A stretch of DNA of 64,000 nucleotides from a virus (IMGVR_UViG_3300046096_000464:1-64000); one strand, 5' to 3'. Positions 3,637-59,251 are shown, numbered from the stretch's first letter. Notes: generated from the sequence alone by a model not told the origin. A program made the numbers and translations.

Positions 3637-4164
3637 TTGTGTTATAATGATGTTGTAATTAATATCACTAGTAGATTTGATATAAGGACAAATGGGCAAA
3701 ATGTAAAAATCTATGAACTAGTATATGGAGAAAAGACTAATCAAAACTATGTACTCAATCATTTAGATGACAATCCTAATAATAATAAGCTATGTAATCT
3801 AGAATTAGTCACTAATTGGTTCAACTCATCAATACAGAAGAAGTCATCTGGACTAGATATTGGTATAAACTATAATCGTGATAATCGTGTTGGCAGTTAT
3901 CAAACAAAAATTGCTATGCCAAGAGTAAATGGTAAGAGAATAACTTTTGGTTCACAATCTATTGATTATCTACAAAACTTACATTTCCAATTTGGAGTAA
4001 AGTCAGGATTAGTGTCTTCTGAACGATACTTACAAGAAGTACCTAATTGGTTGCCAGATCTAACTATCCAATTCAAACCAGAACATCAGATCAAACTAGA
4101 ACTACTAATTGAAGCACACATAGAGAATCAACTTACTTGGGATAAGCCGATTAGGTTGGCATAA
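3637..4164 (+). pseudogene. N-terminally deleted HNH homing endonuclease
   Basis: The 175-codon frame aligns with residues ~65-231 of the intact homing endonucleases at 35087-35782 and 63259-63957: the HNH core (NYVLNHLDDNPNNN, NLELVTNWFN) and the C-terminal half ending TWDKPI are retained, while the first ~65 residues are lost. The only possible start is a TTG lying inside a promoter-like TGTGTTATAAT (TATAAT at 3643-3648). That box is the same promoter that precedes the intact copy, so a deletion has joined promoter to mid-gene. In the HNH core Ile-Asp-Gly is changed to Leu-Asp-Asp. Probably not functional. Confidence 0.75.
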
Positions 4165-4686: not shown

Positions 4687-7600
4687 ATGCAAGTATTTAA
4701 AAGAGATGGCAGCATAGAACCATTAGATCTAGAAAAGATTCATACAATGGTATTTCGTGCATGTGAAGGGGTTGACGATGTGTCCCCTTCATTAGTAGTA
4801 ATGAATAGTAAAATTCAATTAACAGATGGGATTGCTACAGAATATATTCAAAATCTATTAGTGACATCTGCTAATAATTTAATTACTATCGAAGAACCAA
4901 ACTATCAGTACGTGGCAGCACGACTACTACTATTTGGACTATATAAATCTTTATATCCACAGTGGAAAACATTTGGGTTAGTACATATATATCACCATAT
5001 CACTAGATTCAAAAACAAGTATGATTCTATCTTATTTGACAGTTACTCTAAAGAAGATTGGGACGTACTAAATGAAGCAATTGACCATAGTAAAGATTAT
5101 AAATTTACATATGCGTCGTTACAACAATTAATTGATAAGTATCTAATTCAAGACAGATCTACTGGATTTGTATATGAGATTCCGCAGTATGCGTATATGC
5201 TGATTGCCGCCACAGTATTTCATGATTATCCAGTAGAAACTAGATTAGCTACGGTTATAGATTACTACCATGCAATCTCCGATCATGAAATTAATCTCCC
5301 TACGCCTATTATGAGTGGCGTGAGAACTAAACAACGCAATTTTTCTAGCTGTTTTCCTGCTGGACAATTAGTGCATACAAGTACTGGATTAAAGCCAATT
5401 GAAACTATTTCCGTTGGAAATATGGTGTTGACTCATGCTGGAAGAATGATGTCAGTATTAGCTACGAATGCTAAATATTTTGAACAAAAATATGTAGCTA
5501 TTGATACTTATTCTACTTTGAATGATCAATTTGTTTCAACTGATGATCATTTAATATTTGCGGCTAAGGATGTCGGATGTATTCGTGGTTCTGAACATCG
5601 TTCTTGTATATGCAGTCAGGGTATTTATAAATATTGTGAGAAATATCCCAGACAATATTCTGAAGATTGTATTAATTTATACAAAAATGATTTATTTGAA
5701 CCAAAATGGACACCAGCAAAAGAATTAGATGATAATTATTGGGTACATGTGGCATACAATAAATCTGTAGTAAATACTGAGTATTTAATTATATCAGATA
5801 TAATTGATATTGGTAGTCGATACGATATCAATGAAGAAGGATTGATACATTACAAAAGTTATAGATCTGATATATGGTATGTACCTAATAAAATTTATTT
5901 GAATGAAGAGTTATTCAGATTAATTGGGTATTATTTGGCGGAAGGACATGCTACTGATGGTGGCAGTATGGGATTTACCTTCGGCAACAAAGATAAATAT
6001 ATTATTGATGATTGTGTAAATATTATTCAAAACGTATTTGGGTATACAGTAATTCCCTCTAATAATCCTTACGACAATAGTACTAAAGTTAGTATATGCT
6101 CTAAAATTATTACTAACTTGTTTATCCGGCTGTGTAGCAATAAATTTGATAAAAAGTTTATTTGTTATGAATTAATGAATGCTTCTATAGAATTACAAAA
6201 GCAATTACTGATTGGAGTAATTCGGGGAGATGGTTGTGCGTATTCGCAGGGATTGCAGGTAGGGTTGTCTAATAAACAACTAATTTATCAATTATTTGAT
6301 ATATCTTTGCGATTAAAATTGTCACCAACTATAAATGTGCAAAAATATAATGATGGTATACGCCAAGACGTGTATACTATATATTTTCCTAGAAGTGCAA
6401 ATTATGATTTTATTATGGAAGTTGGTAAAGATGTACATAAAGTAAATTATACTAGTAAAACATACGCTTATGGGATATGGAAAGATGACAATTATTTTAC
6501 TAAAATAAAAAGCGTTAAAATTATTAATAGTATTGACGATAATATAGTGTATGATTTACAAATTGCTGGAGATGAAAGTTTTGTAGTTTCTGGATTATCT
6601 GTACACAATTGCGCTTTACTTGATTGTGACGATTCTACTTTATCTATATCTGCTAATAATCAAGCTACCGCTATGCTCACTGCCGCATCTAGTGGTATTG
6701 GTTTAAATGTGGGACGAATGAGGTCTATTGGTAGTAGTATCAGAAATGGTACAGTTATTCATCCTGGTATCGTCCCATTTTTGAAAATCTTTGAATCGAC
6801 AGGTAAGGCATTTAGTCAGGCGGCGAGAGGTGGAAAACTAACCTGCTATTACCATATTTTCGGATACGAGATCGAAACAGTCATTCAACTCAAGAACAAT
6901 CGTGCAAATGAAGTATCTTCGGTGAAGCATCTTGATTACTGTATTTGTATTTCAGAATTGTTTTATAAGAGATTTATAAATAACCAAAATATCACACTAT
7001 TCTGTAATAGTGATACACCAGGATTGTATGATGCTTTTGGCACCCCAGCATTTGATAAATTATATGAATATTACGAGAAAAAGGATGGGGTGAGAAAGAA
7101 AGTTGTATCTATGCAAAAACTGTTTGTAGATCTAATGGAACAACGATCTGAAACGGCGCGGATTTACATAATGAATGTCGATCATGCTAATACACATTCT
7201 CCGTACTTAGACGGAGTATATATGAGCAACTTGTGTGTTGCCCCAGAAACATTATTACTCACCAATAAAGGATATTTGCCAATTGGTACGCTAGAAGATC
7301 AATCAGTAACGATATGGAATGGATGGGAGTGGTCTGATACGGTAGTAAGAAAAACTGGAATTGATCAGAAACTAATCAATATTAAATTCCAAGATGATAA
7401 AGGTAATATTCATAACATAGAATGTACAGAATATCATAAGTTTTTTATACAATCCCGTAATGATGTAATTGAAGTTCGTGCAAACGATTTGATTGTTGGG
7501 CAATATATTCAGAATTGGAATCCTCCAGAATTTCTAATTGATTCTGATATAACTTTACATCAATATCATAGAGATTGGTGGGTATATAGCACACATAATA

Positions 7601-7827
7601 TCGAAAGATTATCTGATACTTATTGTCTTACCGAACCAAAAAGAAATAGAATGGTAATAAATGGGATTCTCTCTGGGCAATGTGTCGAAATCATCCAGCC
7701 AAGTCACCCAATATCCGATATCAATGATACTGGAATTCACGAACATACTGTAGCAGTTAAGAATAATAAATTAGACGAATTTATTAAGCTATCTCAAGAC
7801 AATGAGTTTCTTGAATTTCCTATCTAA
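4687..7827 (+). CDS. nrdA-a: Ribonucleotide reductase large subunit, N-terminal part, with two inteins
   Basis: 1046 residues. Residues 1-90 are an ATP-cone-like regulatory domain (MQVFKRDGSIEPLDLEKI). Extein sequence reads FSS|CALLDCDDS (first redox Cys, E. coli C225) and SNL|CVEIIQP (radical Cys, E. coli C439, with Asn and Glu neighbours). Intein 1 spans residues 222-641 and intein 2 residues 850-998; each lies immediately before a catalytic Cys. The frame stops at residue 1046, before the third active-site Cys (E. coli C462), which is in the next gene. Two splicing events and assembly with nrdA-b are therefore needed to reduce ribonucleoside diphosphates. Confidence 0.93.
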   Translation: MQVFKRDGSIEPLDLEKIHTMVFRACEGVDDVSPSLVVMNSKIQLTDGIATEYIQNLLVTSANNLITIEEPNYQYVAARLLLFGLYKSLYPQWKTFGLVHIYHHITRFKNKYDSILFDSYSKEDWDVLNEAIDHSKDYKFTYASLQQLIDKYLIQDRSTGFVYEIPQYAYMLIAATVFHDYPVETRLATVIDYYHAISDHEINLPTPIMSGVRTKQRNFSSCFPAGQLVHTSTGLKPIETISVGNMVLTHAGRMMSVLATNAKYFEQKYVAIDTYSTLNDQFVSTDDHLIFAAKDVGCIRGSEHRSCICSQGIYKYCEKYPRQYSEDCINLYKNDLFEPKWTPAKELDDNYWVHVAYNKSVVNTEYLIISDIIDIGSRYDINEEGLIHYKSYRSDIWYVPNKIYLNEELFRLIGYYLAEGHATDGGSMGFTFGNKDKYIIDDCVNIIQNVFGYTVIPSNNPYDNSTKVSICSKIITNLFIRLCSNKFDKKFICYELMNASIELQKQLLIGVIRGDGCAYSQGLQVGLSNKQLIYQLFDISLRLKLSPTINVQKYNDGIRQDVYTIYFPRSANYDFIMEVGKDVHKVNYTSKTYAYGIWKDDNYFTKIKSVKIINSIDDNIVYDLQIAGDESFVVSGLSVHNCALLDCDDSTLSISANNQATAMLTAASSGIGLNVGRMRSIGSSIRNGTVIHPGIVPFLKIFESTGKAFSQAARGGKLTCYYHIFGYEIETVIQLKNNRANEVSSVKHLDYCICISELFYKRFINNQNITLFCNSDTPGLYDAFGTPAFDKLYEYYEKKDGVRKKVVSMQKLFVDLMEQRSETARIYIMNVDHANTHSPYLDGVYMSNLCVAPETLLLTNKGYLPIGTLEDQSVTIWNGWEWSDTVVRKTGIDQKLINIKFQDDKGNIHNIECTEYHKFFIQSRNDVIEVRANDLIVGQYIQNWNPPEFLIDSDITLHQYHRDWWVYSTHNIERLSDTYCLTEPKRNRMVINGILSGQCVEIIQPSHPISDINDTGIHEHTVAVKNNKLDEFIKLSQDNEFLEFPI
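5350..6609 (+). other. Intein 1 of NrdA, 420 aa, with LAGLIDADG endonuclease
   Basis: Begins with Cys (CFPAGQLVHTSTGLKPIETI, intein block A) and ends VVSGLSVHN followed by Cys, the canonical His-Asn/Cys junction. Two dodecapeptide LAGLIDADG motifs are visible, LIGYYLAEGHA near residue 411 of the precursor and LIGVIRGDGCA near 508, so the homing endonuclease looks intact. Insertion is exactly before the redox-active Cys of NrdA. Confidence 0.93.
7234..7680 (+). other. Intein 2 of NrdA, 149-aa mini-intein ending in Gln
   Basis: Starts with Cys (CVAPETLLLTNKGYLPIGTL), has an EYHKF block-B-like His region and ends VINGILSGQ directly before the radical Cys of SNLC. At 149 residues it lacks an endonuclease. 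The last residue is Gln instead of the usual Asn, a variant reported for some inteins that changes the cyclisation step; here it abuts a catalytic Cys +1 residue. Confidence 0.85.
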
Positions 7828-7894
7828 TATCCTCTCAGACCCCTCTAGGATGCCCTACAACGTACGATAATTAAAAATATGACTACTGACATCT
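7828..7894 (+). repeat. Composite intergenic repeat inserted in nrdA
   Basis: Contains the module core at 7846-7864 (TAGGATGCCCTACAACGTA) preceded by CTCTCAGACCCCTC and followed by ATGACTACTGACATC. The last part matches repeats at 18,990, 38,375 and 46,190, so the ATG of nrdA-b and its first codons derive from the repeat. It separates two pieces of one ancestral gene. Confidence 0.8.
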
Positions 7895-8850
7895 TCCGCA
7901 TAGCAACAGACCGCCAATTCGATCCTAATACCGAAACATTAGTAGATGATGTAAAGATAATTGACAGACTGCCACCAGGCATCACATCTTGTGTATTAGG
8001 CGCAATCAGTTGGGATAAGTTATCTGACAACATGTCAGATAACTTTATCAAAATGAAACGATGGTGTGATTTAGAGATCAGATCATTAAATCAGATCATC
8101 GACATACAGGAATACAATATCCCTAGTACAGAGATAGCCACTAAATCCGCAAGATATTTGGGGGTAGGGATTAATGGTTATGCAACATTTGCTGCACGAT
8201 TAGGTTTATCATATAATCATAAAGAATTGTGGCAAATCACTCACGATCTTGCAGAAATGCAGATGTTTTGTCTATTATCTGCATCTAATAACTTAGCCAA
8301 AGAAGTAGGTGAATGTAAATGGTTTTATAAAACTAAATATTCACAAGGAATTCTACCTATCGATCACTACAGGAAAAGTGTAGATGATGTAGTTCCTAAT
8401 AATCTTAATATGGATTGGGAAGGGTTGAGAGAATCAATTTTGATGAATGGACTCAGAAACAGTGCATTTTCTGCGGTGATGCCTGTACAATCATCTTCTG
8501 TAATTAGTAACAGTACTAATGGAATCGAACTACCTCGCGCACCATTACAAATCATAAAGTCAAAGAATCGATTAATTCGACAAATAGTAAAAGATTTTAA
8601 AAAATTAGAAGATAATTATGAGTATTGTTGGGAAAAAAGTACAAATACAGGATATATCAATATTTGTGCCGTAATTCAAAAATTCTTCGACCAATCTATC
8701 TCAGCCAACTTGTATTACGATCCTAAATGGTTTTCAGACCAAACTATACCAATGGGTACGATGATTGGTGATGTCTTATATGCGTACAAGATGGGATTAA
8801 AAACATTGTATTATGCTAATTCAAATGACGGTCGAGATGATTATGAATAA
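7879..8850 (+). CDS. nrdA-b: Ribonucleotide reductase large subunit, middle/C-terminal part
   Basis: 323 residues continue NrdA where nrdA-a stops. TSCVLGAI (residues ~35-42) carries the second redox Cys (E. coli C462); MPVQSSSVISNSTNGIELPR and the TLYY radical-transfer tyrosines near the end are diagnostic. The first residues MTTDI come from the inserted repeat, so the start codon is recruited. The frame ends right after TLYYANSNDGRDDYE and lacks the C-terminal Cys pair that re-reduces the active site; that pair is in the next small frame. It must assemble with nrdA-a and NrdB. Split NrdA has a precedent in Aeromonas phage Aeh1, where a homing endonuclease sits between the halves. Confidence 0.92.
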   Translation: MTTDIFRIATDRQFDPNTETLVDDVKIIDRLPPGITSCVLGAISWDKLSDNMSDNFIKMKRWCDLEIRSLNQIIDIQEYNIPSTEIATKSARYLGVGINGYATFAARLGLSYNHKELWQITHDLAEMQMFCLLSASNNLAKEVGECKWFYKTKYSQGILPIDHYRKSVDDVVPNNLNMDWEGLRESILMNGLRNSAFSAVMPVQSSSVISNSTNGIELPRAPLQIIKSKNRLIRQIVKDFKKLEDNYEYCWEKSTNTGYINICAVIQKFFDQSISANLYYDPKWFSDQTIPMGTMIGDVLYAYKMGLKTLYYANSNDGRDDYE

Positions 8851-8913
8851 TCCAGTTAAATGTGTTAAAATAGATAAATAATTAATTACCCACCAATATA
8901 TAAATCAAGAACC

Positions 8914-9087
8914 ATGCCAGAACAACATCCAGAATTGCTAACCGAAATATTGCCATCACACCCATTACCAATTCCTCAGCCAGAATTGCTGACAGAAGTA
9001 CTGTCCACTTCTCCACATAAACGTAAGTATTGCACACCAATGATCATTAATGATGACACAGAAAGTTGCGAAAGTTGTAACGTTTAA
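8914..9087 (+). CDS. nrdA-c: Candidate free-standing NrdA C-terminal redox tail peptide
   Basis: 57 residues from ATG 8914. The end, NDDTESCESCNV, is a textbook NrdA swinging-arm tail (a Cys pair at the extreme C-terminus that shuttles electrons from thioredoxin or glutaredoxin), which nrdA-b lacks. The front is a duplicated low-complexity linker (PELLTEILPSHP then PELLTEVL). It is separated from nrdA-b by 63 bases including a TGTGTTAAAAT box and a stop. Either the tail works in trans or this is a relic of a C-terminus severed by rearrangement. Confidence 0.7.
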   Translation: MPEQHPELLTEILPSHPLPIPQPELLTEVLSTSPHKRKYCTPMIINDDTESCESCNV

Positions 9088-9114
9088 AAGGTATTAGGTA
9101 ATATAAATCCCACT

Positions 9115-9140
9115 AAATCCCACTAAATTTAGTGGGATTT
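9115..9140 (+). terminator. Hairpin between nrdA and nrdB
   Basis: AAATCCCACTAAA pairs perfectly with TTTAGTGGGATTT (13-bp stem, no loop bases needed beyond the centre). It lies after the nrdA tail and just before the AT palindrome at 9147-9164. Confidence 0.6.
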
Positions 9141-9146
9141 ATTAAA

Positions 9147-9164
9147 ATTATTAAATTTAATAAT
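9147..9164. repeat. AT palindrome ATTATTAAATTTAATAAT (reference copy)
   Basis: An 18-base perfect palindrome 3 bases before the nrdB ATG. Full or core copies occur at 13723-13739, 19267-19283, 26354-26367, 30077-30090, 30144-30155, 33627-33640, 35071-35084, 38431-38443, 38881-38894, 39153-39166, 44763-44779, 45211-45224, 47364-47377, 52836-52853, 55106-55121, 56547-56564, 58667-58682, 60365-60379 and 61934-61951. Many lie 2-10 bases before an ATG where no Shine-Dalgarno is obvious, others just after stop codons. Confidence 0.85.
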
Positions 9165-9167
9165 AAC

Positions 9168-11231
9168 ATGTCAGTAATAAATTTAGACAACTCAATCGAC
9201 TTCACGAAGCAAACTCAATTTTTCGATCAACAATTAAATTTACAACGATACGATAAGTATAGATATCCTCTGTTACATCAACTATACAAGACTCAAAAAT
9301 CATACTTTTGGAGTCCGACGGAGATAACATTACAGAAAGACAAAATAGACTATTCAAACTTGACCGAACAAGAAAAATTTATTTACACATCCAATTTAAA
9401 ATATCAAATTTTGTTAGATAGTGTGCAATCTAGAAGTACATTGTTAGCATTTTTGCCATTTGTATCTCTACCAGAATTAGAAAAAAATATAATTATTTGG
9501 GGATTTTTTGAGACTATTCATTCGGAATCATATACTCATATCATTGAGAATGTATATAATAAGCCATCTGAAATTTTTGATAATATTCTGAATATTCCAG
9601 AAATAGTAGAGCGAACCAAACAAGTCACTAAATATTATGATGAGTTTATTGATTTTTCTAGTAGTTGGAATACCTCTAGTATAAAGACATTATTAGTAGA
9701 CGGTAATGTTACCGCTAATCAAACATTATTAGAATTAAAACGTTCATTATATCTAGCTATAGTGAATGTGAATATCTTAGAAGGTATTAGATTTTATACA
9801 TCATTCGCTTGCTCATTTGCCTTTGCAGAAAATGCTAAAATGATTGGTTCTTCTGATATTATTAGTTTAATTGCCAGAGACGAAGCATGTTATACCACTG
9901 GACATGAAGCTTTGACGGATACTGGATGGAAACTAATTGAAGATATTACAAAAGAAGATAAAGTGGCACAATACACCAACAATAATGCAGTAGAATTTGT
10001 TCACCCCACTGCTATTATTAATAAACAATATATTGGTGATGTATATCAATTTATAGACGATTCCGGCAGAATTGAACAAATTGTTACTGCCGATCATCGA
10101 ATGGTGTGGCGTGAGTTATTTACAGGCAGAATGAAAGAATCGGTAGCAGCTACCACTAATTTTACATCAAGTAAGGCAATTGTGGTTAGTGGTATAGTTT
10201 TAGCAGGAGCAGTAGAATTAAGTCCTATAGAAATTTTAAATATATACACTGAATATTGTGGTACTGTTTTAGAAGTATTAGAACATAAATTAAAGGTGGA
10301 GTTTAATGTAAAAAATGAGACTAATTGGAGTAAATTGGGTAGATCTTTAGTTGCATTAGGAATTAGTTACGATTACTATATTACATATAAAACTGGAGTA
10401 TATACCATAACTTGCGAGATACCAACAGCTTCTTTACAAAAATATTTTAGTTGGGTGAATATCCAGGGTAAGTCTACATTATGGGCACAAAATTTAATAA
10501 ATTTATGTAGGGCGTTGAATGGTAACAAATCTTGTATGTCTTCCGTTCCTGGTAAGTTTAAATTTACTATCAATCATACTAAGAGTTTGAAAAAGTTACA
10601 ACAAGTGTTTGCTATTAGTAATTGGAAAATATATCATACTCACCCGTCAAAAAAATATGTTGGGTATAATATTAACGTATTGACTACTAGAAATTCTCAT
10701 ATTACTTCAAAAACAGAGAAGGTTAAACAAAATTATAGTGGCAAGGTTTATTGTTTATCTGTTCCTTCTGGTGCATTTTTTGTTAGATATAATGAAAAGG
10801 TTTCAGTTGGGGGCAATTGTCATACTCGACTTACTGAAACTATTATTAAGAATTGGCAAGCTGGTGAGGATAAAGATATTCTTAATATTATTAAAGAAGA
10901 AGAACAATTGGTATATACTATGTTTGATCTAGCAGTAGCGGCGGAAATAGAGTGGGCAGAATATCTTTTCAAAAATGGTAGTATATTGGGGTTGAATGTA
11001 GAACTATTATCACAATATATTAAATTTGTGGCGAATCGTAGACTTAAAGCGATCAATATGAAGCCACTGTATGACGATGTTTCTGTCAAGAATCCTTTGC
11101 CCTGGATCGATAATTATCTGAAGTCTTCTAATATAAGTGTCGCGCCACAAGAAACGGAGGTCTTATCATACCAAATTGGTAATATTGACAAAAATATAAG
11201 TGAAGGGCAATTCAGTAATTTTGAATTGTAA
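9168..11231 (+). CDS. nrdB: Ribonucleotide reductase small subunit with intein
   Basis: 687 residues from ATG 9168, placed just after the AT palindrome; an upstream in-frame GTG at 9132 lies in the terminator hairpin and is less likely. Di-iron ligands are visible: ETIHS (Glu, His), LEGIRFY (Glu) and ARDEA|CH (Glu, His). The tyrosyl-radical subunit would pair with the NrdA fragments. An intein occupies residues 241-550, between the Glu and His of the last ligand motif, so only spliced NrdB can bind iron. After it, CHTRLTETIIKNW to the FSNFEL C-terminus is normal extein. Confidence 0.93.
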   Translation: MSVINLDNSIDFTKQTQFFDQQLNLQRYDKYRYPLLHQLYKTQKSYFWSPTEITLQKDKIDYSNLTEQEKFIYTSNLKYQILLDSVQSRSTLLAFLPFVSLPELEKNIIIWGFFETIHSESYTHIIENVYNKPSEIFDNILNIPEIVERTKQVTKYYDEFIDFSSSWNTSSIKTLLVDGNVTANQTLLELKRSLYLAIVNVNILEGIRFYTSFACSFAFAENAKMIGSSDIISLIARDEACYTTGHEALTDTGWKLIEDITKEDKVAQYTNNNAVEFVHPTAIINKQYIGDVYQFIDDSGRIEQIVTADHRMVWRELFTGRMKESVAATTNFTSSKAIVVSGIVLAGAVELSPIEILNIYTEYCGTVLEVLEHKLKVEFNVKNETNWSKLGRSLVALGISYDYYITYKTGVYTITCEIPTASLQKYFSWVNIQGKSTLWAQNLINLCRALNGNKSCMSSVPGKFKFTINHTKSLKKLQQVFAISNWKIYHTHPSKKYVGYNINVLTTRNSHITSKTEKVKQNYSGKVYCLSVPSGAFFVRYNEKVSVGGNCHTRLTETIIKNWQAGEDKDILNIIKEEEQLVYTMFDLAVAAEIEWAEYLFKNGSILGLNVELLSQYIKFVANRRLKAINMKPLYDDVSVKNPLPWIDNYLKSSNISVAPQETEVLSYQIGNIDKNISEGQFSNFEL
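9888..10817 (+). other. NrdB intein, 310 aa
   Basis: Starts CYTTGHEALTDTGWKLIEDI, carries a block-B-like TADHRMVW, and ends YNEKVSVGGN followed by Cys-His of the extein. Its length exceeds a mini-intein by about 150 residues but no clear LAGLIDADG dodecapeptide is visible, so the endonuclease domain is divergent or decayed. Confidence 0.9.
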
Positions 11232-13639: not shown

Positions 13640-13890
13640 TGATGATAATTAATTACAATGGGGGGGGGGGTAATATCATGCTCTAGCTATCACACATCCT
13701 TTGCGGAGGATGTTTAACGAATTTATTAAATTTAATAATGACCTTCTAATTGATTTTAGAAGGTCATTATTTTTATGATTTGACACTAGTACTCATATTT
13801 ATAGTTTTTGTGCGTTGTAGAGCATTTTAGCGATGTCTGGCAATACATTAATAACTGTGTTATAATGATTATATAGTTTATATTAATAAA
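13640..13890. repeat. Composite intergenic module, reverse copy, plus promoter
   Basis: Non-coding. In order: an 11-base G run (13660-13670), a CATCCT/AGGATG hairpin, an AT palindrome (13723-13739), terminator AATGACCTTCTAA/TTAGAAGGTCATT (13737-13768), a minus-strand TATAAATA box (13796-13803), the reverse module core (13811-13829), and a plus-strand promoter TGGCAA-17-TATAAT (13838-13866). It is the clearest complete copy of the module on the reverse strand. Confidence 0.75.
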
Positions 13891-13998: not shown

Positions 13999-14508
13999 AT
14001 GAGTATTTTATGCGATAGTAATCAATTTTTGATAGGAATCCTGATTAATCAACAACAATATGACACAATAGATGTAGATTATGTAAGAAATCAATATATT
14101 AATCGATTGCAGAATTATTCTGCACATTTCTATAATTATGGGTCAGTAATTTTATGTTTTGATAATAATAATTACTGGCGGAAGGACGTGTTTCCTTATT
14201 ATAAGTATAGTAGAAAGGAAGATCGGAAAAAATCGACAATCGACTGGTCAAAAATATTTAATGACATCAATATGATTAAACAGGCATTAAAAAATACTTC
14301 ATATTCCGTAATGGAAGTAGATGGTGCCGAAGCCGACGATATTATTGCAGTTATCTCAAAACACGAATATATTAATAATACTAGCACTATGATTATCTCT
14401 GGTGATAAAGATTTTGTCCAGTTATTAAAGTATCCAACAGTTAGTATTTATAATAGTCAGAAAAATATTTTATTAAAGGGAAAAATTTGTGAAAACCAAT
14501 TTTTATGA
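13999..14508 (+). CDS. rnh: RNase H / 5'-nuclease, N-terminal part (split rnh)
   Basis: 169 residues of the PIN-like half of T4 RNase H: MSILCDSNQF (first Asp), VILCFDNNNYWRKDVFPYYK, VDGAEADDIIA and TMIISGDKDFVQLL give the acidic metal-binding residues. The frame ends at 14508, just before the helix-three-turn-helix half, which continues in another frame from 14489. In T4 the enzyme removes RNA primers and gp32-guided flaps. Here activity needs two polypeptides, a frameshift, or correction of a sequencing error. Confidence 0.85.
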   Translation: MSILCDSNQFLIGILINQQQYDTIDVDYVRNQYINRLQNYSAHFYNYGSVILCFDNNNYWRKDVFPYYKYSRKEDRKKSTIDWSKIFNDINMIKQALKNTSYSVMEVDGAEADDIIAVISKHEYINNTSTMIISGDKDFVQLLKYPTVSIYNSQKNILLKGKICENQFL

Positions 14509-14848
14509 TCAAGAACAATTGAGTGAACTACTATCATTACATATAGCTAAAGGTGATCGCAGTGATGGTATACCTAATATTCATTCAGATGACAATACAT
14601 TTGTTGATAAAATAAGACAGGTTCCTGTAACCAAAAAAATTCTAAGTAAATTTCATATAGACCCTGAGCAATATTGTCAGGATTGTGATATAATAGATAA
14701 TTATCGGAGAAATAAATTATTAATAGATTTCTCTATGATTCCAGACGAGATAGAACAGACTATCTTAGAGGAATACAAAAAGACTAAAAAGCCAAAATTA
14801 CTAAAATCAAAAACATATGACTTCCAAAAACATAAATCCAGCATCTAA
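14489..14848 (+). CDS. rnh: RNase H / 5'-nuclease, C-terminal part
   Basis: 119 residues beginning with GTG 14489, 20 bases inside the upstream frame and in the +1 frame. LLSLHIAKGDRSDGIPNI is the conserved H3TH DNA-binding segment of T4 RNase H. AAAGGGA lies 8 bases before the GTG and could act as a ribosome-binding site, favouring independent translation of a second subunit over a dead gene. The stop overlaps the next gene by 32 bases. Confidence 0.8.
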   Translation: MKTNFYDQEQLSELLSLHIAKGDRSDGIPNIHSDDNTFVDKIRQVPVTKKILSKFHIDPEQYCQDCDIIDNYRRNKLLIDFSMIPDEIEQTILEEYKKTKKPKLLKSKTYDFQKHKSSI

Positions 14849-35086: not shown

Positions 35087-35782
35087 TTAGAACATAATAG
35101 GTTTATCCCAAGTAAGCTGATTTTCTATGTGTGTAGCAATTAATTGGTCTAGTTTTATCTGATGTTCTGGTTTGAATTGAATGGTAGAATCTGGCAACCA
35201 ATTGTGAACTTCTTTGAGGTATCGTTCTGGACTGACTAATCCAGATTTTACTCCAAACTGATAATGCAAGTTCTGGAGATAATTCATATCTTCAGAACCA
35301 AAATTTATTCTCTCACTATTTCTAGGCATATGAATTTGTGTTCTATAGCTACTACTACCATTATTATATATTGCACCAATAGGTAGTCCAGATGACTTCT
35401 TTCGTAATACTGTATTAAACCAATTAGTAACTACTTCTAAATTAGTAAGTTTATTATTACTAGGATCGCCATCTATATGATTAATTACATAGTTATTATT
35501 AGTCTTGACTCCAAATACTAATTCATGAATATATGTAGTTTGTCCATCTTTATGAGTATGAAATCTACCTCCACTATCAGGATTAAAATTATATAGTTTT
35601 AACAATTCTACTTTATCAAGATCTATAGAATTAGTATATAATTTACCAGATTTAGTATTGAGTAGATGTAATAGATCATCTACAAATAATTGATTATATG
35701 TAAGTTTTTGATTACTTTTATTGAGATTATGGTGAGGTTGATCGAATTGATAGAGATTTAAAATTTTACAGAAATGAATCAT
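35087..35782 (-). CDS. HNH homing endonuclease, intact family member
   Basis: 231 residues. HNH core: YVINHIDGDPSNNKLTNLEVVTNWFN (His, Asn, His-like residues). The N-terminal 70 residues (MIHFCKIL...FDQPHHNLNKSN) and C-terminal DNA-recognition half (YLQNLHYQFGVKSGLVSPERYLKEV, TWDKPIMF) define a family with decayed copies throughout the window. It sits antisense between gp27 and gp5, within the baseplate cluster. Its promoter is at 35809-35814 (minus-strand TGTGTTATAAT). Confidence 0.85.
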   Translation of the reverse strand: MIHFCKILNLYQFDQPHHNLNKSNQKLTYNQLFVDDLLHLLNTKSGKLYTNSIDLDKVELLKLYNFNPDSGGRFHTHKDGQTTYIHELVFGVKTNNNYVINHIDGDPSNNKLTNLEVVTNWFNTVLRKKSSGLPIGAIYNNGSSSYRTQIHMPRNSERINFGSEDMNYLQNLHYQFGVKSGLVSPERYLKEVHNWLPDSTIQFKPEHQIKLDQLIATHIENQLTWDKPIMF

Positions 35783-49759: not shown

Positions 49760-50896
49760 ATGCTTTCTCGCTATAATTATCGATTTTATCCAACTCCTCA
49801 CCAACAGTTGCGCCTTGCGCATACTTTTGGTTGCTGTCGTTTTGTTTATAATCATATTTTAGCGATTATTAAATCTAATACTCTCAAATTTACTTCTGCT
49901 TACGATCTAATTAAACTTGTTACTTTACTTAAATCTGAGCACACTTTTCTGAAAGATGTCTCGTCTGTTGCTCTTCAACAATCTGTTTCTAATTTAGGTA
50001 GTTCGTTTAAAAACTTTTTTGATTCCCTGAAAGGGAAACGCAAAGGTCAAAAAATAGGTTTCCCTAAATTTAAAAAACGTACTAATTCTCAAAGTTGTAC
50101 ATTTCAATCTAATGGGTATCAATTACTAGCAAATGGCGAAATATCTATAGCTAAAATCGGTACGATTAAACCTATATATTCTCGCGAATTGCCTTCTACC
50201 CCTACTTCTTGCACGATTACTAAAGATTGTGCAGATAGATATTTTATCAGTTTTGTCGTACAAGTAGAACCAGTACAAATATATAGCGAATCACCGAGTA
50301 TCGGTATCGATTTAGGTATTCAAACTTTTGCTATTTGTTCTGATGGGACTGCATATAAATCTCCTAATACCTATAATAAACTCTATGACAAGATTGCTAA
50401 AGCACAACATAAACATGCTAAGTCACAACCAGGATCTAAACGTAGAAACAATCTTAGGCTTTCGATAGCAAAATTACATAACAAAATTACTGATATTCGT
50501 AAGGATTTCCATCATAAAGTAAGTACTTTAATTTGCAGCAAAAACCAAACTGTAAGTTTAGAACATCTGAATGTAAAAGGAATGCTTGCTAATCGAAAAT
50601 TGTCGAAAGCAATAAGTAGACAAGGGTGGAGTAATTTTGTAGTACTAATTAAAGCTAAATGTGATAAATTTGGGAGAGAATTTGTACAGATAGGGAGATT
50701 CTATCCAAGCAGTCAGATATGTAACGAGTGTGGATACCGATGGGGTTCGCTAGACTTGTCCATAAGGACGATTAAATGCGAAAGATGCGGAGTAATACAC
50801 GATAGAGACATAAATGCAGCAAAGAATATAGATAAAGTCGGCATCGGTCATGGGCACGACTATAAATGTGCGGTGAGAGCAGGTAAGACTAGATAG
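49760..50896 (+). CDS. tnpB: TnpB RNA-guided nuclease
   Basis: 378 residues, full length for compact TnpB. N-terminal helix-turn-helix-like YRFYPTPHQQLRLAHTFGCCRFVYNH; RuvC residues in GIDLGIQ (Asp ~184), SLEHLNVKG (Glu ~267) and HDRDINAAKNI (Asp ~350); a zinc finger CNECG...CERCG between the last two. All catalytic residues are present, so it is probably active. TnpB uses an omegaRNA from the element's right end to cut DNA next to a TAM and so retain the element. Confidence 0.93.
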   Translation: MLSRYNYRFYPTPHQQLRLAHTFGCCRFVYNHILAIIKSNTLKFTSAYDLIKLVTLLKSEHTFLKDVSSVALQQSVSNLGSSFKNFFDSLKGKRKGQKIGFPKFKKRTNSQSCTFQSNGYQLLANGEISIAKIGTIKPIYSRELPSTPTSCTITKDCADRYFISFVVQVEPVQIYSESPSIGIDLGIQTFAICSDGTAYKSPNTYNKLYDKIAKAQHKHAKSQPGSKRRNNLRLSIAKLHNKITDIRKDFHHKVSTLICSKNQTVSLEHLNVKGMLANRKLSKAISRQGWSNFVVLIKAKCDKFGREFVQIGRFYPSSQICNECGYRWGSLDLSIRTIKCERCGVIHDRDINAAKNIDKVGIGHGHDYKCAVRAGKTR

Positions 50897-52886: not shown

Positions 52887-52954
52887 TGCCAGATCGATCT
52901 CACTCCTCTCTACTGTGCCTAAAATGCCCTATAAGACGGATCTAACTGATTTTA

Positions 52955-53125
52955 GGTATATCTCACCTACACCAAAAATACAATGTATAAATTGTAGGTG
53001 AAAACAAATGGCTGAGACACAATGTAATCTCTAAGCCATTATGCCCAATCTCTTGAAATAGCTTGCTATTAGATTCGATTGGTGAGATAGTAAAGAGGTA
53101 AGCAACAAATCGAACCATATAAAAA
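52955..53125 (+). promoter_or_regulatory. Early cassette leader, copy with promoter
   Basis: CAATGTATAAATTGTAG, a hairpin AATGGCTGAGA/CTAAGCCATT, and promoter 53063-53091 (TTGCTA-17-GATAGT), then GAGGTAAGCAAC. Same order in the cassettes at 55190, 56690 and 59080. Confidence 0.65.
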
Positions 53126-53396
53126 ATGACTTGCCCCCTACGCCGCTCTAACGTTTACTCACTATCTGCAACAATTAATTTTGACAATATCGATTATGAT
53201 CGGGGGAGAATTAGAGTCCAATTGGGTATCATTTATATATGGGTGGCTAACTCATATCCGACAAAATTATACTATCAACAATGATATTGGATTTATTACT
53301 TTTGTTGGTAAAGATTATTATGGTCATATAACTTATACTCGCACTCGCCGAATTTATTTAAATAGTTCCCGATTGTATATTAAAACGTTAATATAA
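53126..53396 (+). pseudogene. Frame-disrupted early gene
   Basis: ATG 53126 sits where cassette genes start but its frame ends after 52 codons (53284), while an overlapping frame from TTG 53181 runs to 53396 (71 codons, MTISIMIGGELE to RRIYLNSSRLYIKTLI). Neither is a convincing full gene; together they look like one gene broken by a +1/-2 shift near 53180-53280. Coding status uncertain. Confidence 0.4.
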
Positions 53397-53515
53397 AACC
53401 TATACTATCTATTAATAAACATCTCAGTAGTTAAGTAATTTGGCTGATGTGTATATATCCTCACATCAGCTACCATCTAATCAGTCAATCTAAACATATA
53501 CAAAAGGTAAACAAA

Positions 53516-53830
53516 ATGAGTCTTGAAACATTAAATGATACTTTCGGATTGCCACAAGATGCTACATTAGAAGATATACAAGTATTTTTTAAACAAAATA
53601 GTGTGTCTTACCAGATATTTACCCGTCCGCACGATAAGAATGGTGATCGGTGCTACATAATAGCAGTATATATGACTACTGGTAAGGTATACGGCTTTAA
53701 AACTTATAACACTAGTATTTGTCTATCAATGTTTAAATTTTGTAATAAACTACCAATACAATTAGAATTATCCCCAGCTAATTTTAAATTTTTAGATAAA
53801 CATCAAATAGATTTTGTATTTCATTGTTAA
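53516..53830 (+). CDS. Hypothetical early protein, 104 aa
   Basis: 104 residues from ATG 53516, after AAAGGTAAACAAA and a leader hairpin; a longer frame to 53447 would run through the hairpin. DTFGLPQDATLEDIQVFFKQN and RCYIIAVYMTTGKVYGFKTY suggest an alpha/beta fold. Unlike its neighbours it is near neutral. Family not recognised. Confidence 0.6.
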   Translation: MSLETLNDTFGLPQDATLEDIQVFFKQNSVSYQIFTRPHDKNGDRCYIIAVYMTTGKVYGFKTYNTSICLSMFKFCNKLPIQLELSPANFKFLDKHQIDFVFHC

Positions 53831-53906
53831 TCTCAGTCATCTGGCGGATTGAATATACCAAACCCAATCCGCTATCATGTAAACAACAAATAAATAGAGA
53901 CATAAC

Positions 53907-54170
53907 ATGAAATTAACCGAATATATCAATCCTTGGATCATATGGTATGCAGATGGCGAAATAATAGAAACGCAACATAACTCACGACCATTAGCTGAGT
54001 CTTTTCATAAAATATGTACGGTTTATCCTGGAATAAATATGAAGTATTTGCAACATATATTTGATTCGTACGATATAGAAAACTTAGCAGATCCTATCTA
54101 TGTTGAAAACATTTTTTGCGAAAAATTAGCACTATATCACGACGAACTATACCCATACTCAGAGGATTAA
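53907..54170 (+). CDS. Hypothetical early protein, 87 aa
   Basis: 87 residues, acidic, with MKLTEYINPWIIWYADGEIIETQ at the start. Leader hairpin 53844-53872 and AGAGACATAAC before the ATG. No family recognised. Confidence 0.6.
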   Translation: MKLTEYINPWIIWYADGEIIETQHNSRPLAESFHKICTVYPGINMKYLQHIFDSYDIENLADPIYVENIFCEKLALYHDELYPYSED

Positions 54171-54266
54171 GTAGACTATATTGCGACAATTGGCTGATAG
54201 ACAAATACTCACTCTATCAGTTAAAGTTGAAACATACCAAATCGAATCATAACTAGGTAAACAAAA

Positions 54267-55106
54267 ATGGCAACTGCAATCGAATCAATTACAGAATCTT
54301 ACAATTTAGTCGATGGTAATATGGAGATATGCCCTAAAAATAAAGGTAAGTGGATCACATCTGACATGTTGCGCATCGGTGACTATGACAATAGTACCGA
54401 TGTACAGCGTGCTAATGTATCATACATTTTGGAACATTATGCGTCAAATCGTTATCATGAAACACATTTAGGGTATGGTCATCATCAAATATTTCTTAAA
54501 TTTACCGAAGTAAACGCAGCATTGGTATGTGATCTAGAGGATTATCCTACCATCTGTGATTCGTACTACTATGACTGGCAACAAAAACATTCTAAGGAAT
54601 ACTTCAATGATAGTGATATATCATATTATCCTGTAATCGAGCAAGCATTAAATCGACTACATGAAGATACAGATTGGACTGTATCAGATCGGATCTATGG
54701 TGCTATACTACATTTTTCTGACTTATGGTGTGGCGGAGAATCTTATCATTGGAGCGGTTCATCATACTACTTCACTCTGCAAGATAGTAATTATGCTTCT
54801 GATGACAATATAAATGAAGTAGTTTTATACTTTATCGATAACCCACCATACTCAAAAAAAGATCTTAACCCAAATACAATTGATAACATAATACAAAATG
54901 TAACTCCTGGCATATATACCCTAGTTGCTACTAGTTATAATGACTTAGAATTACATGGTGGTGGTATAGACTACATGACTACTCACGATTATCCTATGCA
55001 AGAGATTACAATATATGACGGCGATGACATTAAATCCATAATACAAGACGCATACAATGAAATAGTCGAATACAATTTTGAATATCTCGATTATGCACCT
55101 ATATAA
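54267..55106 (+). CDS. Hypothetical early protein, 279 aa
   Basis: 279 residues, the largest of the early block: acidic and Tyr/Asp-rich. It begins MATAIESITESYNLVDGNMEI and includes a His-rich HETHLGYGHHQIFLKF stretch and the cluster DLWCGGESYHWSGSSYYF. No membrane segment or known catalytic motif. AGGTAAACAAAA precedes the ATG; palindrome and hairpin terminator follow directly. Confidence 0.65.
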   Translation: MATAIESITESYNLVDGNMEICPKNKGKWITSDMLRIGDYDNSTDVQRANVSYILEHYASNRYHETHLGYGHHQIFLKFTEVNAALVCDLEDYPTICDSYYYDWQQKHSKEYFNDSDISYYPVIEQALNRLHEDTDWTVSDRIYGAILHFSDLWCGGESYHWSGSSYYFTLQDSNYASDDNINEVVLYFIDNPPYSKKDLNPNTIDNIIQNVTPGIYTLVATSYNDLELHGGGIDYMTTHDYPMQEITIYDGDDIKSIIQDAYNEIVEYNFEYLDYAPI

Positions 55107-55189
55107 TTATTAAATTTAATATCTAGATCGATTATCCGATCTAGATATCATCTCTATGACCGCTAGAATGCCCCAGAACTGCTCTAATC

Positions 55190-55350
55190 ATCAAACTAGA
55201 CTCGTACTCGTCTCAATCATTACGACACTGTATAAATTGTAGTAGGAAACAAATGGCTTAGACACAACGTAATCTCTAAGCCATTATACTGAATCTCTTA
55301 AAATAGCTTGCAATTAGATCGGATTAGTGGGATAGTTAAGAAGTCGAGCA
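55190..55350 (+). promoter_or_regulatory. Early cassette leader and promoter
   Basis: CATTACGACACTGTATAAATTGTAG, AATGGCTTAGA/TCTAAGCCATT hairpin, promoter TTGCAA-17-GATAGT at 55308-55336 and a GAGCAAACAACA leader to ATG 55366. Confidence 0.65.
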
Positions 55351-55365
55351 AACAACACAACAACA

Positions 55366-55614
55366 ATGATAACTCAACTGTATCTTATTAAACGAATCTG
55401 TTCAGACTATACCAAATCTAAATCAGTCTACTATAATTATGGTAGTATCGATGATGCGATATCAACTACTAAGAATACTTGTGAGACTATATTTAATTAT
55501 AACCATGTAGCAGAATCATCTATATTTGAAATATGGGCAGATGATAGTAAATTAGTGACAATAACAACTAATTTGGTAGATTTTTGTCCAGATACTATGG
55601 TTACTTTTCATTAA
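55366..55614 (+). CDS. Hypothetical early protein, 82 aa
   Basis: 82 residues: MITQLYLIKRICSDYTKSKSVYYNYGSIDDAI, then IFEIWADDSKLVTITT. Compact alpha/beta protein, first gene of its cassette and driven by the 55308 promoter. Function unknown. Confidence 0.6.
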   Translation: MITQLYLIKRICSDYTKSKSVYYNYGSIDDAISTTKNTCETIFNYNHVAESSIFEIWADDSKLVTITTNLVDFCPDTMVTFH

Positions 55615-55702
55615 ACTTCCGCAATTTAGCTGATGTGTAACTATCCTCATATCAGCTACCATGTAAACATACTCAATCGAAACACATACAAGGTAAACAC
55701 CA

Positions 55703-56065
55703 ATGTCCAATACCTCTAACAGTAAATTTGTCCTAGATTCTGTACGGAATCATGTTACACAATCTGTATCTATTGATGGTACTGTTCCATCATTCTCTGC
55801 TGCGGCTGTCTATGTTTGGCATGAATTCATACGAGTTACAAATAATGATTATTATAAACATCATTTTCCCAACTTGCAAGATCGGTTTAGTAATTATCTC
55901 GATGGCTTACCTCACTCATTTTTAATTTATTATAATGAGATGGAAACCTATCTAGATACACTCGGTCTTAACAATAATTCCAAGACTAAATTTAGTGAAG
56001 ACAAAATACATAAAATGTATCACTTTCTTATCTATAAAGTAATATATCGCGAAATTTCAAAATAA
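55703..56065 (+). CDS. Hypothetical early protein, 120 aa
   Basis: 120 residues, helical, with a basic C-terminus (KTKFSEDKIHKMYHFLIYKVIYREISK). Unlike its acidic neighbours it could bind nucleic acid. Leader hairpin 55628-55657 with GTAAACATACT precedes it. Family unknown. Confidence 0.6.
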   Translation: MSNTSNSKFVLDSVRNHVTQSVSIDGTVPSFSAAAVYVWHEFIRVTNNDYYKHHFPNLQDRFSNYLDGLPHSFLIYYNEMETYLDTLGLNNNSKTKFSEDKIHKMYHFLIYKVIYREISK

Positions 56066-56130
56066 TACATTATTGGCGATCTGATATTACAGATCGCCGT
56101 AACTACTCACTCACCTAACCTTAAAATACA

Positions 56131-56538
56131 ATGAATCATTCTAAACTACAATCTATAGAATTTGACGGATCTATTGCATTTAATGATGCTACTGAATTAC
56201 TAGAATACGTTCAATTACTTACTGGCATCATACCAGATGATAATGAGCATTGTATTATTAATGGTGAGAAATACTACTACAATGATGTGATAACTCCACT
56301 ATTCGATATCTTTGCCGCAATTTTACTAGCATTCCCTACACTCACATCAGAACAACAAAATACAATCTCACTACTTGAAGATTACAGTGACTTAAATAAA
56401 TATCGTATCGGTAGCTGTGGTATTACATTAGATGACATTTATGATCATGACGAAAATAATTTTCATTATGGCATTCGCCATATCTATGAACTATTAGGGG
56501 GGATTGCCCCAACTACTGATGATGCTGAAGCTGAATAA
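56131..56538 (+). CDS. Hypothetical early protein, 135 aa
   Basis: 135 residues, acidic, helical; LLSEQQNT-like turns and a C-terminal GGIAPTTDDAEAE. It closes this cassette and is followed by palindrome 56547-56564 and terminator. Function unknown. Confidence 0.6.
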   Translation: MNHSKLQSIEFDGSIAFNDATELLEYVQLLTGIIPDDNEHCIINGEKYYYNDVITPLFDIFAAILLAFPTLTSEQQNTISLLEDYSDLNKYRIGSCGITLDDIYDHDENNFHYGIRHIYELLGGIAPTTDDAEAE

Positions 56539-56635
56539 CACTACAAATTATTAAATTTAATAATACAAAAGCCGTTCTCATCAGATCGGCTTTTTTGGTT
56601 TATAGCAGTTCTACTCGATCCTTAACATCATCTCT

Positions 56636-56845
56636 AAGGTGCCCAGAATGCCCTATAACGAATCAAACACTCAAACTAGACTCATAATCACCTTACTAAT
56701 TACGACACTGTATAAATTGTAGTGATACACAAATGGCTTAGACCTATCGTAATCAATACGTCATTATGCTTAATCTCTTAAAATAGCTTGCAATTAGATC
56801 GCATTAGTGGGATAGTTGAGAGGTAAACAAATAGCCGCTAATCAA
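56636..56845 (+). promoter_or_regulatory. Module-core relic, cassette leader and promoter
   Basis: Core-like GCCCAGAATGCCCTATAACG (56641-56660), CACTGTATAAATTGTAG, a degenerate AATGGCTTAGA hairpin and promoter 56788-56816 (TTGCAA-17-GATAGT). Confidence 0.6.
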
Positions 56846-57082
56846 ATGATTCCACTAATCCGACTTAAAAATATGATAGCTACCGAACAAAAGGTTTATG
56901 CTACCTGGAATAAACAAAGAATTACTATCAATAATGTATTACTTTCTGAAATATTTTTTAGTATACATGGTAGTTCTATATTCAATCAATTACATCATAC
57001 TACAATAGATCACTTATCCGATATAAGTTATGATATAGTCCCTAATAAATATCAGCCATTTGGCCGTTCCTATCTATCCTAA
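56846..57082 (+). CDS. Hypothetical early protein, 78 aa
   Basis: 78 residues from ATG 56846; the longer TTG-started frame from 56816 would begin inside the promoter. Moderately basic (KNMIATEQKVYATWNKQRITIN). First gene of its cassette. Function unknown. Confidence 0.55.
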   Translation: MIPLIRLKNMIATEQKVYATWNKQRITINNVLLSEIFFSIHGSSIFNQLHHTTIDHLSDISYDIVPNKYQPFGRSYLS

Positions 57083-57136
57083 GATCGGCTACCATATAAA
57101 CATAACAAGCAAACCGCCACTAAGGGAACAGAGAAC

Positions 57137-57778
57137 ATGAATTTTCAAACCACTACAACTAATTTCAATCTATTTCTTACCACTAATGGGTACCCTACAT
57201 CAGAAAATACAATGTATCTTTTGTCTAAGTCTTATGATGTTTTCCTGACAACTAATTCATACGATCATTTTGTAGATAAAATGCTACAATATGTCTCAGA
57301 ATCCTATAATACAGAGTTAGATCGTATAGAACAATGTTTCGATATATTAGGTGATGAGGTATTACTATCTCCCACTATATTCATAGATCTATTGTATGGA
57401 TTTTATAAGATCCAACAAATACTCGATCTTAACACTAGTGACAATCTATTACTAATGACTCAGTATGATATACTAACCTTAACTCTAAGTGTCCTTAATT
57501 TTTGTGAATATGGTAGCACTTTTATCGATTTTGCAAAAATCATATCGATCTGTGATACAGCTTGTGACATAACTTTACTACAACATGACTTTATTGTGTG
57601 GTATACATTACAATTATATCCATATACTACCCAAAAATTCACTTTATCCGAATTTCGTGATACAATGTGTAATCTAGATATAGTAGCATCTCGTAAAGTA
57701 CCCTATGGATTAAATAATACACTTCTCAATTTTGGCTGTTTCAAAAATATTAATGGTATATACATTCAACTACCATAA
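57137..57778 (+). CDS. Hypothetical early protein, 213 aa
   Basis: 213 residues with repeated Leu/Tyr helices (LLYGFYKIQQILDL, LLMTQYDILTLTLSVLNF); composition acidic. AAGGGAACAGAGAAC stands before the ATG, giving a fair ribosome-binding site. Last in its cassette, ending at terminator 57806-57837. Its size and Tyr-rich helices resemble the 59252 protein, which may be a distant relative. Confidence 0.6.
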   Translation: MNFQTTTTNFNLFLTTNGYPTSENTMYLLSKSYDVFLTTNSYDHFVDKMLQYVSESYNTELDRIEQCFDILGDEVLLSPTIFIDLLYGFYKIQQILDLNTSDNLLLMTQYDILTLTLSVLNFCEYGSTFIDFAKIISICDTACDITLLQHDFIVWYTLQLYPYTTQKFTLSEFRDTMCNLDIVASRKVPYGLNNTLLNFGCFKNINGIYIQLP

Positions 57779-57952
57779 CCCTACTATCTATTACCTTTAA
57801 TAACACAGCCGATCTGATTAAGATCGGCTGTTTTTTTGTTCTTAATTTACGCGATCGTTCTCACTACTCTATTACTATCTTCTCTATTACCGCTATTATG
57901 CCATCAGATTACGACATTGTAGTGAGAAACATAAGCTATTATGCTTAACTTC

Positions 57953-57981
57953 TGGCAGACTGCTAGATATCTCGTTATAAT
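57953..57981 (+). promoter_or_regulatory. Second-type early promoter (TGGCAG-17-TATAAT)
   Basis: Conserved with 59980-60008 (TGACAA-17-TATAAT), sharing CTGCTAGATATCTCGT and AAGAGTAAACAGAT around it. It drives the two genes whose products start MTTST. Confidence 0.65.
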
Positions 57982-58013
57982 TTAAGAGTAAACAGATTTC
58001 GGAGATACGACTC

Positions 58014-58340
58014 ATGACTACTTCTACTCATTATGTATTACTAACTCATTGTCTAGAATATTCCTATAATGACTACGAATCAGATGAATCAGATGAATCA
58101 TACTACACATACGAATTGATTGTACCACACTCATTCGCTGATGTGGTAGAAACTGCTTTAGATTATGGTAATGTAAGCTACAGTTGGAACTGCGAATATA
58201 ATGATTGCCAACACTATGTTTTAGATGAGACTCCAGCAGATGACAATGAATGGAAAAAAGTGACAGATCGATTATCGATGATAATGTCTGAATTTTGTAT
58301 AGATTACCATCATGACCTAATCTGCTACCATATTTATTAA
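58014..58340 (+). CDS. Hypothetical acidic early protein, 108 aa
   Basis: 108 residues, extremely acidic (YESDESDESYYTYELI, DETPADDNEWKK), with several His and Cys. The first residues MTTSTHYVLLTH resemble MTTSTTTLELID of the 60041 gene, which shares its promoter and leader; the downstream parts differ. Candidate DNA-mimic or sequestering protein, by composition only. Confidence 0.6.
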   Translation: MTTSTHYVLLTHCLEYSYNDYESDESDESYYTYELIVPHSFADVVETALDYGNVSYSWNCEYNDCQHYVLDETPADDNEWKKVTDRLSMIMSEFCIDYHHDLICYHIY

Positions 58341-58722
58341 CTTTAATACCACAGCCGATCTTAATCAGATCGGCTGTTTTTTTGTACCTGAATTCACCAC
58401 AAAATACTACATTATTTGGTAGGCACACTCTATTATAACAATTTGTTATAACATCAAATATTAATGAATGTTATAATAAATTGTTATAACATTCATTTTG
58501 TAGTATTGTTTGGGTGGATATAGAAATCACTCCAAACCCATACACAGCACTACATTCAGCCATTTCAAAAACTACAAAAGTGACACCACTTTGACACCAC
58601 TTTTTGTAAGACTTATGGTAAAATCTACTATAACTTCTTACATATTAGGCTACAAATCTACTACACATTATTAAATTTAATAGTCTACTGAGCGATCGTT
58701 CTCAATGCTAGGTCAACCCCTT
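58341..58722. other. Non-coding region with terminator, inverted and direct repeats
   Basis: Terminator 58351-58381; inverted repeat AATGAATGTTATAA/TTATAACATTCATT (58463-58497) with two further TTGTTATAACA boxes; tandem TGACACCACTT (58580-58601); palindrome 58667-58682. No convincing gene on either strand. The clustered TTATAACA boxes could be protein-binding sites. Confidence 0.55.
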
Positions 58723-58950
58723 ACAAAAAGTCATTAAAAGGACTACAAACCTATTGGATACGTCATTATGCACTACTGATTATGTATGTCTATCTTGCTA
58801 CCTAATGTAATAAAATCCAGATCTGGAGATTGTAACTCCCAAACACTATACTCTGTAATATGTGTAGCGGTGGTATATACATTATCTAGTCAGTCTTTTG
58901 TAGACAAAAAGTCATTAAAAGGACTACAAACCCATTGGAGATCGATCGCC
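58723..58950 (+). repeat. 180-bp tandem unit, locus 1
   Basis: A unit of about 180 bases starting ACAAAAAGTCATTAAAAGG and ending TCAGTCTTTTGTAG (58723-58902), followed by the first ~48 bases of a second unit. It matches locus 2 at 60420-60720 closely. It contains CCTAATGTAATAAAATCC and CTATACTCTGTAATATG, which are promoter-like. The short open frames here look incidental. Confidence 0.75.
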
Positions 58951-59251
58951 ACAAATTACAGTTTATTGCAGTATGTGGTATGACTGGAGATCGATCGCTA
59001 CCACGCCGATCCCTAATATGCTCTGAGAGGTGCCTAGAATGCCCTCAGACAGTCCAGACAGTCAATCTAGACATATACTCACTTCACTCATTACGACAAT
59101 GTAGAAATTGTAGTGAGAAACAAATGGCTGAGAGACAATGTAATCCCTCAGCCATTATGCCTAATATCTTAAAATTGCTTGGAATTGGATCGGGATTAGT
59201 GGGATAGTAGAGAGGTAAGCAAACAACAACCGATAAGGGAACATAATACAA
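58951..59251 (+). promoter_or_regulatory. Module-core relic, cassette leader and promoter
   Basis: TCTGAGAGGTGCCTAGAATGCCC (59022-59044), CAATGTAGAAATTGTAG, perfect hairpin AATGGCTGAG/CTCAGCCATT (59124-59157), promoter TTGGAA-18-GATAGT (59179-59208) and AAGGGAACATAA before ATG 59252. Confidence 0.65.

Follow-up and report, generated by a model that had tools for sequence, protein, structure and literature searches.

A class Ia ribonucleotide reductase of a T4-like phage with three inteins and an nrdA gene split at the Aeh1 site, where the gap holds a dispersed promoter-like repeat

The ribonucleotide reductase of phage Aeh1 is said to be the best-studied case of an essential enzyme that is split by a free-standing endonuclease and still works, and the tails carried by its two NrdA chains are reportedly essential for their assembly. 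The enzyme formed by NrdA-a and NrdA-b is functional (PMC2988022, PMC3653736), and in Listeria phages A511 and P100 the interruption of nrdA resembles repeats dispersed in Brochothrix phage A9 (PMC3653736). The NrdB intein of Aquifex aeolicus was shown to splice, and the construct that carried it gave the higher iron loading (PMC8772380); going by the title of reference 23 in that paper, this intein spliced without the penultimate His. Splicing is known for inteins that end in Gln and for others that lack the penultimate His (PMC4031507). Here, we describe the nrdA-nrdB locus (4687-11231) of the virus IMGVR_UViG_3300046096_000464, analysed within a window, i.e., the whole stretch of DNA under study, that comprises bases 1-64,000 of the 109,315-base IMG/VR record. 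To judge from the alignments, this locus represents a real and unusually fragmented class Ia ribonucleotide reductase of a T4-like phage, and its new aspect is the fragmentation itself: an Aeh1-like split with a dispersed promoter-like repeat at the place where the endonuclease would be. The locus is composed as follows.

4687-7827, plus strand: NrdA-N precursor, 1046 amino acids (Pfam ATP-cone, Ribonuc_red_lgN, Ribonuc_red_lgC positions 2-213 of 523 and Intein_splicing; alignments)
5350-6609, plus strand: intein 1, 420 amino acids, LAGLIDADG-type, CFPAG...SVHN/C (junctions; Pfam Intein_splicing and LAGLIDADG_3; LAGLIDADG matches)
7234-7680, plus strand: intein 2, mini-intein of 149 amino acids, CVAPE...LSGQ/C (junctions; TIGR01445 intein_Nterm)
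7732-7824, plus strand: C-terminal tail of NrdA-N, 31 codons, GIHEHTVAVKNNKLDEFIKLSQDNEFLEFPI (missing from normal NrdA; codon usage)
7822-7893, plus strand: repeat copy at the nrdA break (nhmmer search with a model that excludes this copy, 58.4 bits, E=9e-17)
7879-8850, plus strand: NrdA-C, 323 amino acids (Ribonuc_red_lgC positions 224-522 of 523, E=3e-53; alignments)
7879-7983, plus strand: N-terminal head of NrdA-C, about 34-35 codons, mostly non-native (alignment; codon usage; first codons repeat-derived)
8848-8913, plus strand: second gap, AT-rich and promoter-like, with four TAA stops in frame
8914-9087, plus strand: open reading frame (ORF) of 57 amino acids ending TESCESCNV, most likely the detached NrdA redox arm (C-terminal motif of relatives; codon usage)
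9116-9139, no strand assigned: terminator-like hairpin AATCCCACTAAA/TTTAGTGGGATT, located past the arm ORF and ahead of nrdB, spanning GTG 9132
9168-11231, plus strand: NrdB precursor with one intein, 687 amino acids (Ribonuc_red_sm, E=9e-49; PRK09101 above cut-off; alignment)
9888-10817, plus strand: NrdB intein, 310 amino acids, CYTTG...VGGN/C (junctions; homologous inteins in PA-SR01 and PTm1)

NrdA-N comprises the ATP cone, the all-alpha domain and the beginning of the barrel, is interrupted by inteins 1 and 2 and ends with a non-native tail; NrdA-C holds what remains of the barrel, including the YY radical-transfer pair and the Cys equivalent to C462, and lacks the C-terminal Cys pair. 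With the inteins and both split-site tails removed in silico, the NrdA exteins align to residues 3 to 736 of E. coli NrdA (E about 1e-204), bringing FSSC, SNLC.E, C225, C439, C462, N437, E441 and Y730/Y731 into register; they were also aligned to T4 and P-SSM2 NrdA. The NrdB exteins match E. coli NrdB over nearly its full length (residues 11-377, 1e-104) with all six di-iron ligands and the radical Tyr in register, so that the catalytic residues of both subunits are intact. About 1,000 extein codons are free of frameshift or internal stop, and nrdB is likewise uninterrupted. A preliminary description of this DNA had NrdA cut into three frames; there are indeed three pieces, but all of them lie in frame 1 and are separated by stops (TAA at 7825 and TAG at 7846 in the first break; TAA at 8848, 8857, 8866 and 8875 in the second). 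It had also placed the NrdB start at GTG 9132, a codon which falls inside the terminator-like hairpin; homology begins at MSVINLD, and the start is ATG 9168.

The three inteins occupy the catalytic sites that had been claimed for them (FSS/C, SNL/C and ARDEA/CH), junctions and extein alignments being in agreement, and their removal restores the family alignments given above. Intein 1 follows FSS and precedes the C225-equivalent Cys, intein 2 is placed likewise between SNL and the equivalent of C439, and in NrdB the intein separates the equivalents of Glu238 and His241 in the iron-ligand motif. All three possess class 1 features, namely Cys1 (CF, CV and CY starts), a block B TxxH (TDDH, TEYH and TADH) and Cys+1; the C-terminal His-Asn is present in intein 1 only, intein 2 ending in Gly-Gln and the NrdB intein in Gly-Asn. 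All three are predicted to splice, and with three complete inteins and NrdA in three pieces a working enzyme would need, as had been proposed, three splicing events and several chains. Intein 2 matches TIGR01445 intein_Nterm over residues 1-72 (E=1e-4, just under the curated cut-off), and no endonuclease domain was seen in it. The NrdB intein shares 32% and 25% identity with the same-site inteins of PA-SR01 and PTm1, respectively, and the ADG motif of these two reads YCG here, its endonuclease being apparently degenerate. In a single-sequence search of IMG/VR, relatives of two of the inteins were found in the same phage only. Since these inteins are of known kinds, and the sites of two of them were confirmed here in other genomes, they are by themselves ordinary; their density, earlier emphasized as striking, loses its novelty, given that the NrdB site is shared with Aquifex, PA-SR01 and PTm1 and that of intein 1 with PTm1. 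A "fractured gene" built on a split intein was also considered and rejected: both NrdA inteins are complete, and 48 codons separate intein 2 from the break that follows it.

The first break maps to Ribonuc_red_lgC positions 213/224, i.e., between the positions of C439 and C462, which is the Aeh1 split site, and among the 80 nearest phage NrdA loci the corresponding site is unbroken in all 77 that reach far enough. NrdA-N and NrdA-C are parted by 51 nucleotides. Codon log-odds in frame amount to +0.58 per codon for the tail and +0.45 for the head, the exteins giving +0.35 to +0.37; for reference, in-frame 33-codon stretches of coding sequence in this genome have a median of 0.48, and the 95th percentile of off-frame ones is -0.29. 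The tails thus carry a coding signature, and the gap (-0.43) has none. Could the interruption be removed from messenger RNA as a small self-splicing intron (about 7733-7971), the tails being read-through into it? Its excision would restore the native 12-residue spacing (DINDTPPGITSC) and its ends are group-I-like (T before, G at the end). Nevertheless, the RNA fold is no better than that of shuffled sequences (z=+0.42), 72 of the 239 nucleotides belong to the dispersed promoter-like repeat, and cmscan found no family at E<=5, although this test is weak and also missed the published interruption of A511 nrdA. The in-frame codon bias of tail and head is a stronger counter-argument than the intron search, and on balance an intron appears improbable. 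T4 gene 60 is a known case of translational bypass in phage and provides a precedent for the idea that ribosomes pass the stops by readthrough or hopping and make one long NrdA, to which the common frame of the three pieces would be favorable. This would require passing two stops and then four, while NrdA-C has its own ATG and the gap, devoid of coding signature, is a generic intergenic repeat with other copies located between unrelated genes; we consider bypass very improbable.

This repeat is present in the genome in about 22 copies, with the core TAAAAATA at nrdA and TATAAATA in others, the latter being the T4 late promoter sequence. Intergenic TATAAATA often precedes gene starts of this phage by 32-44 bases. 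At nrdA, the repeat copy contains the NrdA-N stops and the ATG of NrdA-C. In its full form the repeat extends over about 90 bases (CTAGAATGCCCTACAACGCACGATAACTATAAATATGACTACTAGTATC), and many copies are followed by a hairpin, AATAATGACC...GGTCATTATT; the copy at 103346-103444 of the record has a perfect one, GCTCTGAGAGGGG...CCCCTCTCAGAGC. The copies at 7826 and 62060 carry CCCC in place of the GGGG run, as if part of the repeat were inverted. A family of HNH endonucleases, detected by tblastn in about 12 full or partial copies (3637-4164, 35087-35782, 63259-64008 and some nine more), is associated with these repeats, about 7 of the 12 genes or remnants ending directly at a repeat copy, and an HNH gene ends at a repeat in a related phage contig (about 60% identical) as well. 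One member stands upstream of nrdA.

3637-4164, plus strand: free-standing HNH endonuclease ORF (PF13392 HNH_3; tblastn family)

The explanation we favor, at a probability of roughly 0.6, is that of a split class Ia ribonucleotide reductase. Its precursors would lose two cis-splicing inteins from NrdA-N and one from NrdB, after which NrdA-N and NrdA-C, as separate chains meeting between C439 and C462, would assemble non-covalently as in Aeh1, each chain using the short non-native tail at the break. Most likely, an HNH homing-endonuclease gene together with its associated late-promoter-like repeat was inserted into nrdA; the endonuclease would then have been lost, with the repeat and the tails left behind, and a second interruption would have cut off the C-terminal CESC arm, now placed on its own ORF of 57 amino acids.

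In each of the 80 nearest phage NrdA proteins the terminal motif C-[ED]-[SA]-C-x-I stands in the same ORF as the barrel, and in the locus described here the C-terminal Cys pair resides on a separate ORF beyond four stops rather than on the barrel chain. Since the third piece ends with CESCNV and its relatives with the above motif, it most likely is the detached redox arm; its codon log-odds are +0.22 in frame and negative in the other frames. None of these 80 relatives, as examined here, has a detached arm. It is tempting to propose that the free 57-residue CESC peptide re-reduces a two-chain NrdA core in trans, making up a four-polypeptide class Ia reductase split by a dispersed promoter repeat, with tails that represent domesticated mobile-element sequence, but this extension of the model is doubtful. 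The same break may be read in another way, with nrdA as a decaying pseudogene whose function is served by the host reductase and whose inteins are passengers. Two independent breaks, shared by no close relative, and the loss of the covalent redox arm would agree with decay, and degenerating nrdA genes were described in Campylobacter phages (PMC3653736). Against it stand the long uninterrupted run of extein codons with intact catalytic residues, an nrdB gene with neither stop nor frameshift, and the coding-type codon usage of every piece, tails included; moreover, the Aeh1 enzyme works with its NrdA cut at this very site (PMC2988022, PMC3653736). Decay is thus unlikely, though it has to be taken seriously.

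Several points weigh against the split enzyme as favored above. Decay would explain the loss of a covalent redox arm just as well. No Shine-Dalgarno sequence precedes the ATG of NrdA-C, as is true for most genes of this phage. Transcription from TAAAAATA, should it serve as a late promoter, would begin past this ATG, so that NrdA-C would need an upstream transcript and re-initiation. AlphaFold prediction for the read-through region 7681-8847 places the tails below 50 in the predicted local distance difference test and is uninformative for them. Compared to the C-termini of HNH endonucleases, the tail of NrdA-N gives a match in the expected register when right-anchored (p=0.018) and 3.1 bits when unanchored, which makes its origin as a possible remnant of the 3′ end of an HNH gene suggestive. 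Similarity to the tails of Aeh1 is not significant overall (p about 0.03-0.05 for the tail and 0.23-0.33 for the head), therefore homology between them is not established; a search of the phage collection with the Aeh1 tails gave a convincing match to Aeh1 itself only.

The affiliation of the phage follows from PHROGs markers of T4-like myoviruses (DNA end protector, baseplate tail tube cap, baseplate hub and tail lysozyme, single-strand binding protein and RNA ligase), and a match to T4 RNase H points in the same direction. Cyanophages P-SSM2 and S-8S55 share with it the gene order primase-nrdA-nrdB, and the closest NrdA proteins, with about 50% identity, belong to cyanophages and similar contigs. 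The nrdAB region is identical in 3 other IMG/VR contigs (4 in all), thus no assembly error is obvious. As to the second intact nrdAB whose existence the preliminary description had raised as an objection, the 109-kb record, which may be incomplete, yielded neither a second nrdA nor an NrdD, nor a phage glutaredoxin or thioredoxin as possible substitute for the arm. Elsewhere in the window, T4-type RNase H (13999-14848) is likewise encoded by two ORFs that overlap and use different frames, 13999-14508 for the N-terminal and 14489-14848 for the C-terminal domain, and this layout reads alike in other contigs, with no obvious assembly error. At 13660-13670, two other contigs have a G homopolymer shorter by one base than that of the window, the sole difference seen in the compared stretch. 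A gene of a transposase family (phrog_506) is located at 49760-50896, and a separate family of direct repeats of about 200 bases, in 4 copies between small ORFs, occupies 52902-59215.

A second split at the Aeh1 site with no remaining endonuclease suggests that this loop tolerates cutting, and the general route from insertion through tails to loss of the element becomes testable. In terms of gene structure, the locus shows that a phage's dispersed promoter-like repeat is able to split a gene and to provide the resulting new gene with its start codon. Should the detached arm be used in trans, it would be a direct test of whether the arm has to be covalent, and with three inteins at catalytic sites the supply of deoxyribonucleoside triphosphates for the phage would hang on several post-translational steps.

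Compared to known systems, the NrdB intein resembles that of the Aquifex aeolicus R2 protein by its position between two iron ligands, Glu and His, and by Cys at +1, but the latter has 346 amino acids and a LAGLIDADG endonuclease, whereas the intein described here has 310 and looks degenerate (PMC8772380). Homologous NrdB inteins at the same site are found in Pseudanabaena phage PA-SR01, whose NrdA is unbroken and intein-free, and in Tenacibaculum phage PTm1, whose NrdA intein begins at the same C225 site as intein 1; NrdA of PTm1 is annotated as two ORFs (L006 504-3916), the first of which ends inside the intein and not at the Aeh1 site. The reductase intein of Chilo iridescent virus, by its description, ends in Gln instead of Asn, like intein 2, and splices efficiently, although its host protein belongs to an insect virus (PMC4031507). 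In Listeria phages A511 and P100, a short non-coding stretch similar to interspersed repeats divides the coding parts of nrdA (PMC3653736), and the break in A511 falls just past SNLC; these phages, however, represent another family, the stretch has its match in an intron of phage A9 and no tails are described. The "fragmented" nrdA of Vibrio phage 6E35.1a was rejected as a parallel, being broken elsewhere, near the C-terminal third. As to the split, the likeness is to Aeh1, which also has a class Ia NrdA in a T4-like phage, split between C439 and C462 (Ribonuc_red_lgC 221/222 versus 213/224 here) and with extra tails on both chains. It differs in that the insertion there is the mobE endonuclease, in contrast to the 51-nucleotide repeat gap without endonuclease here, in that its NrdA-b retains CDVCKV, whereas a second break detaches the CESC arm in our case, and in the three inteins that interrupt the reductase genes of the phage described here.

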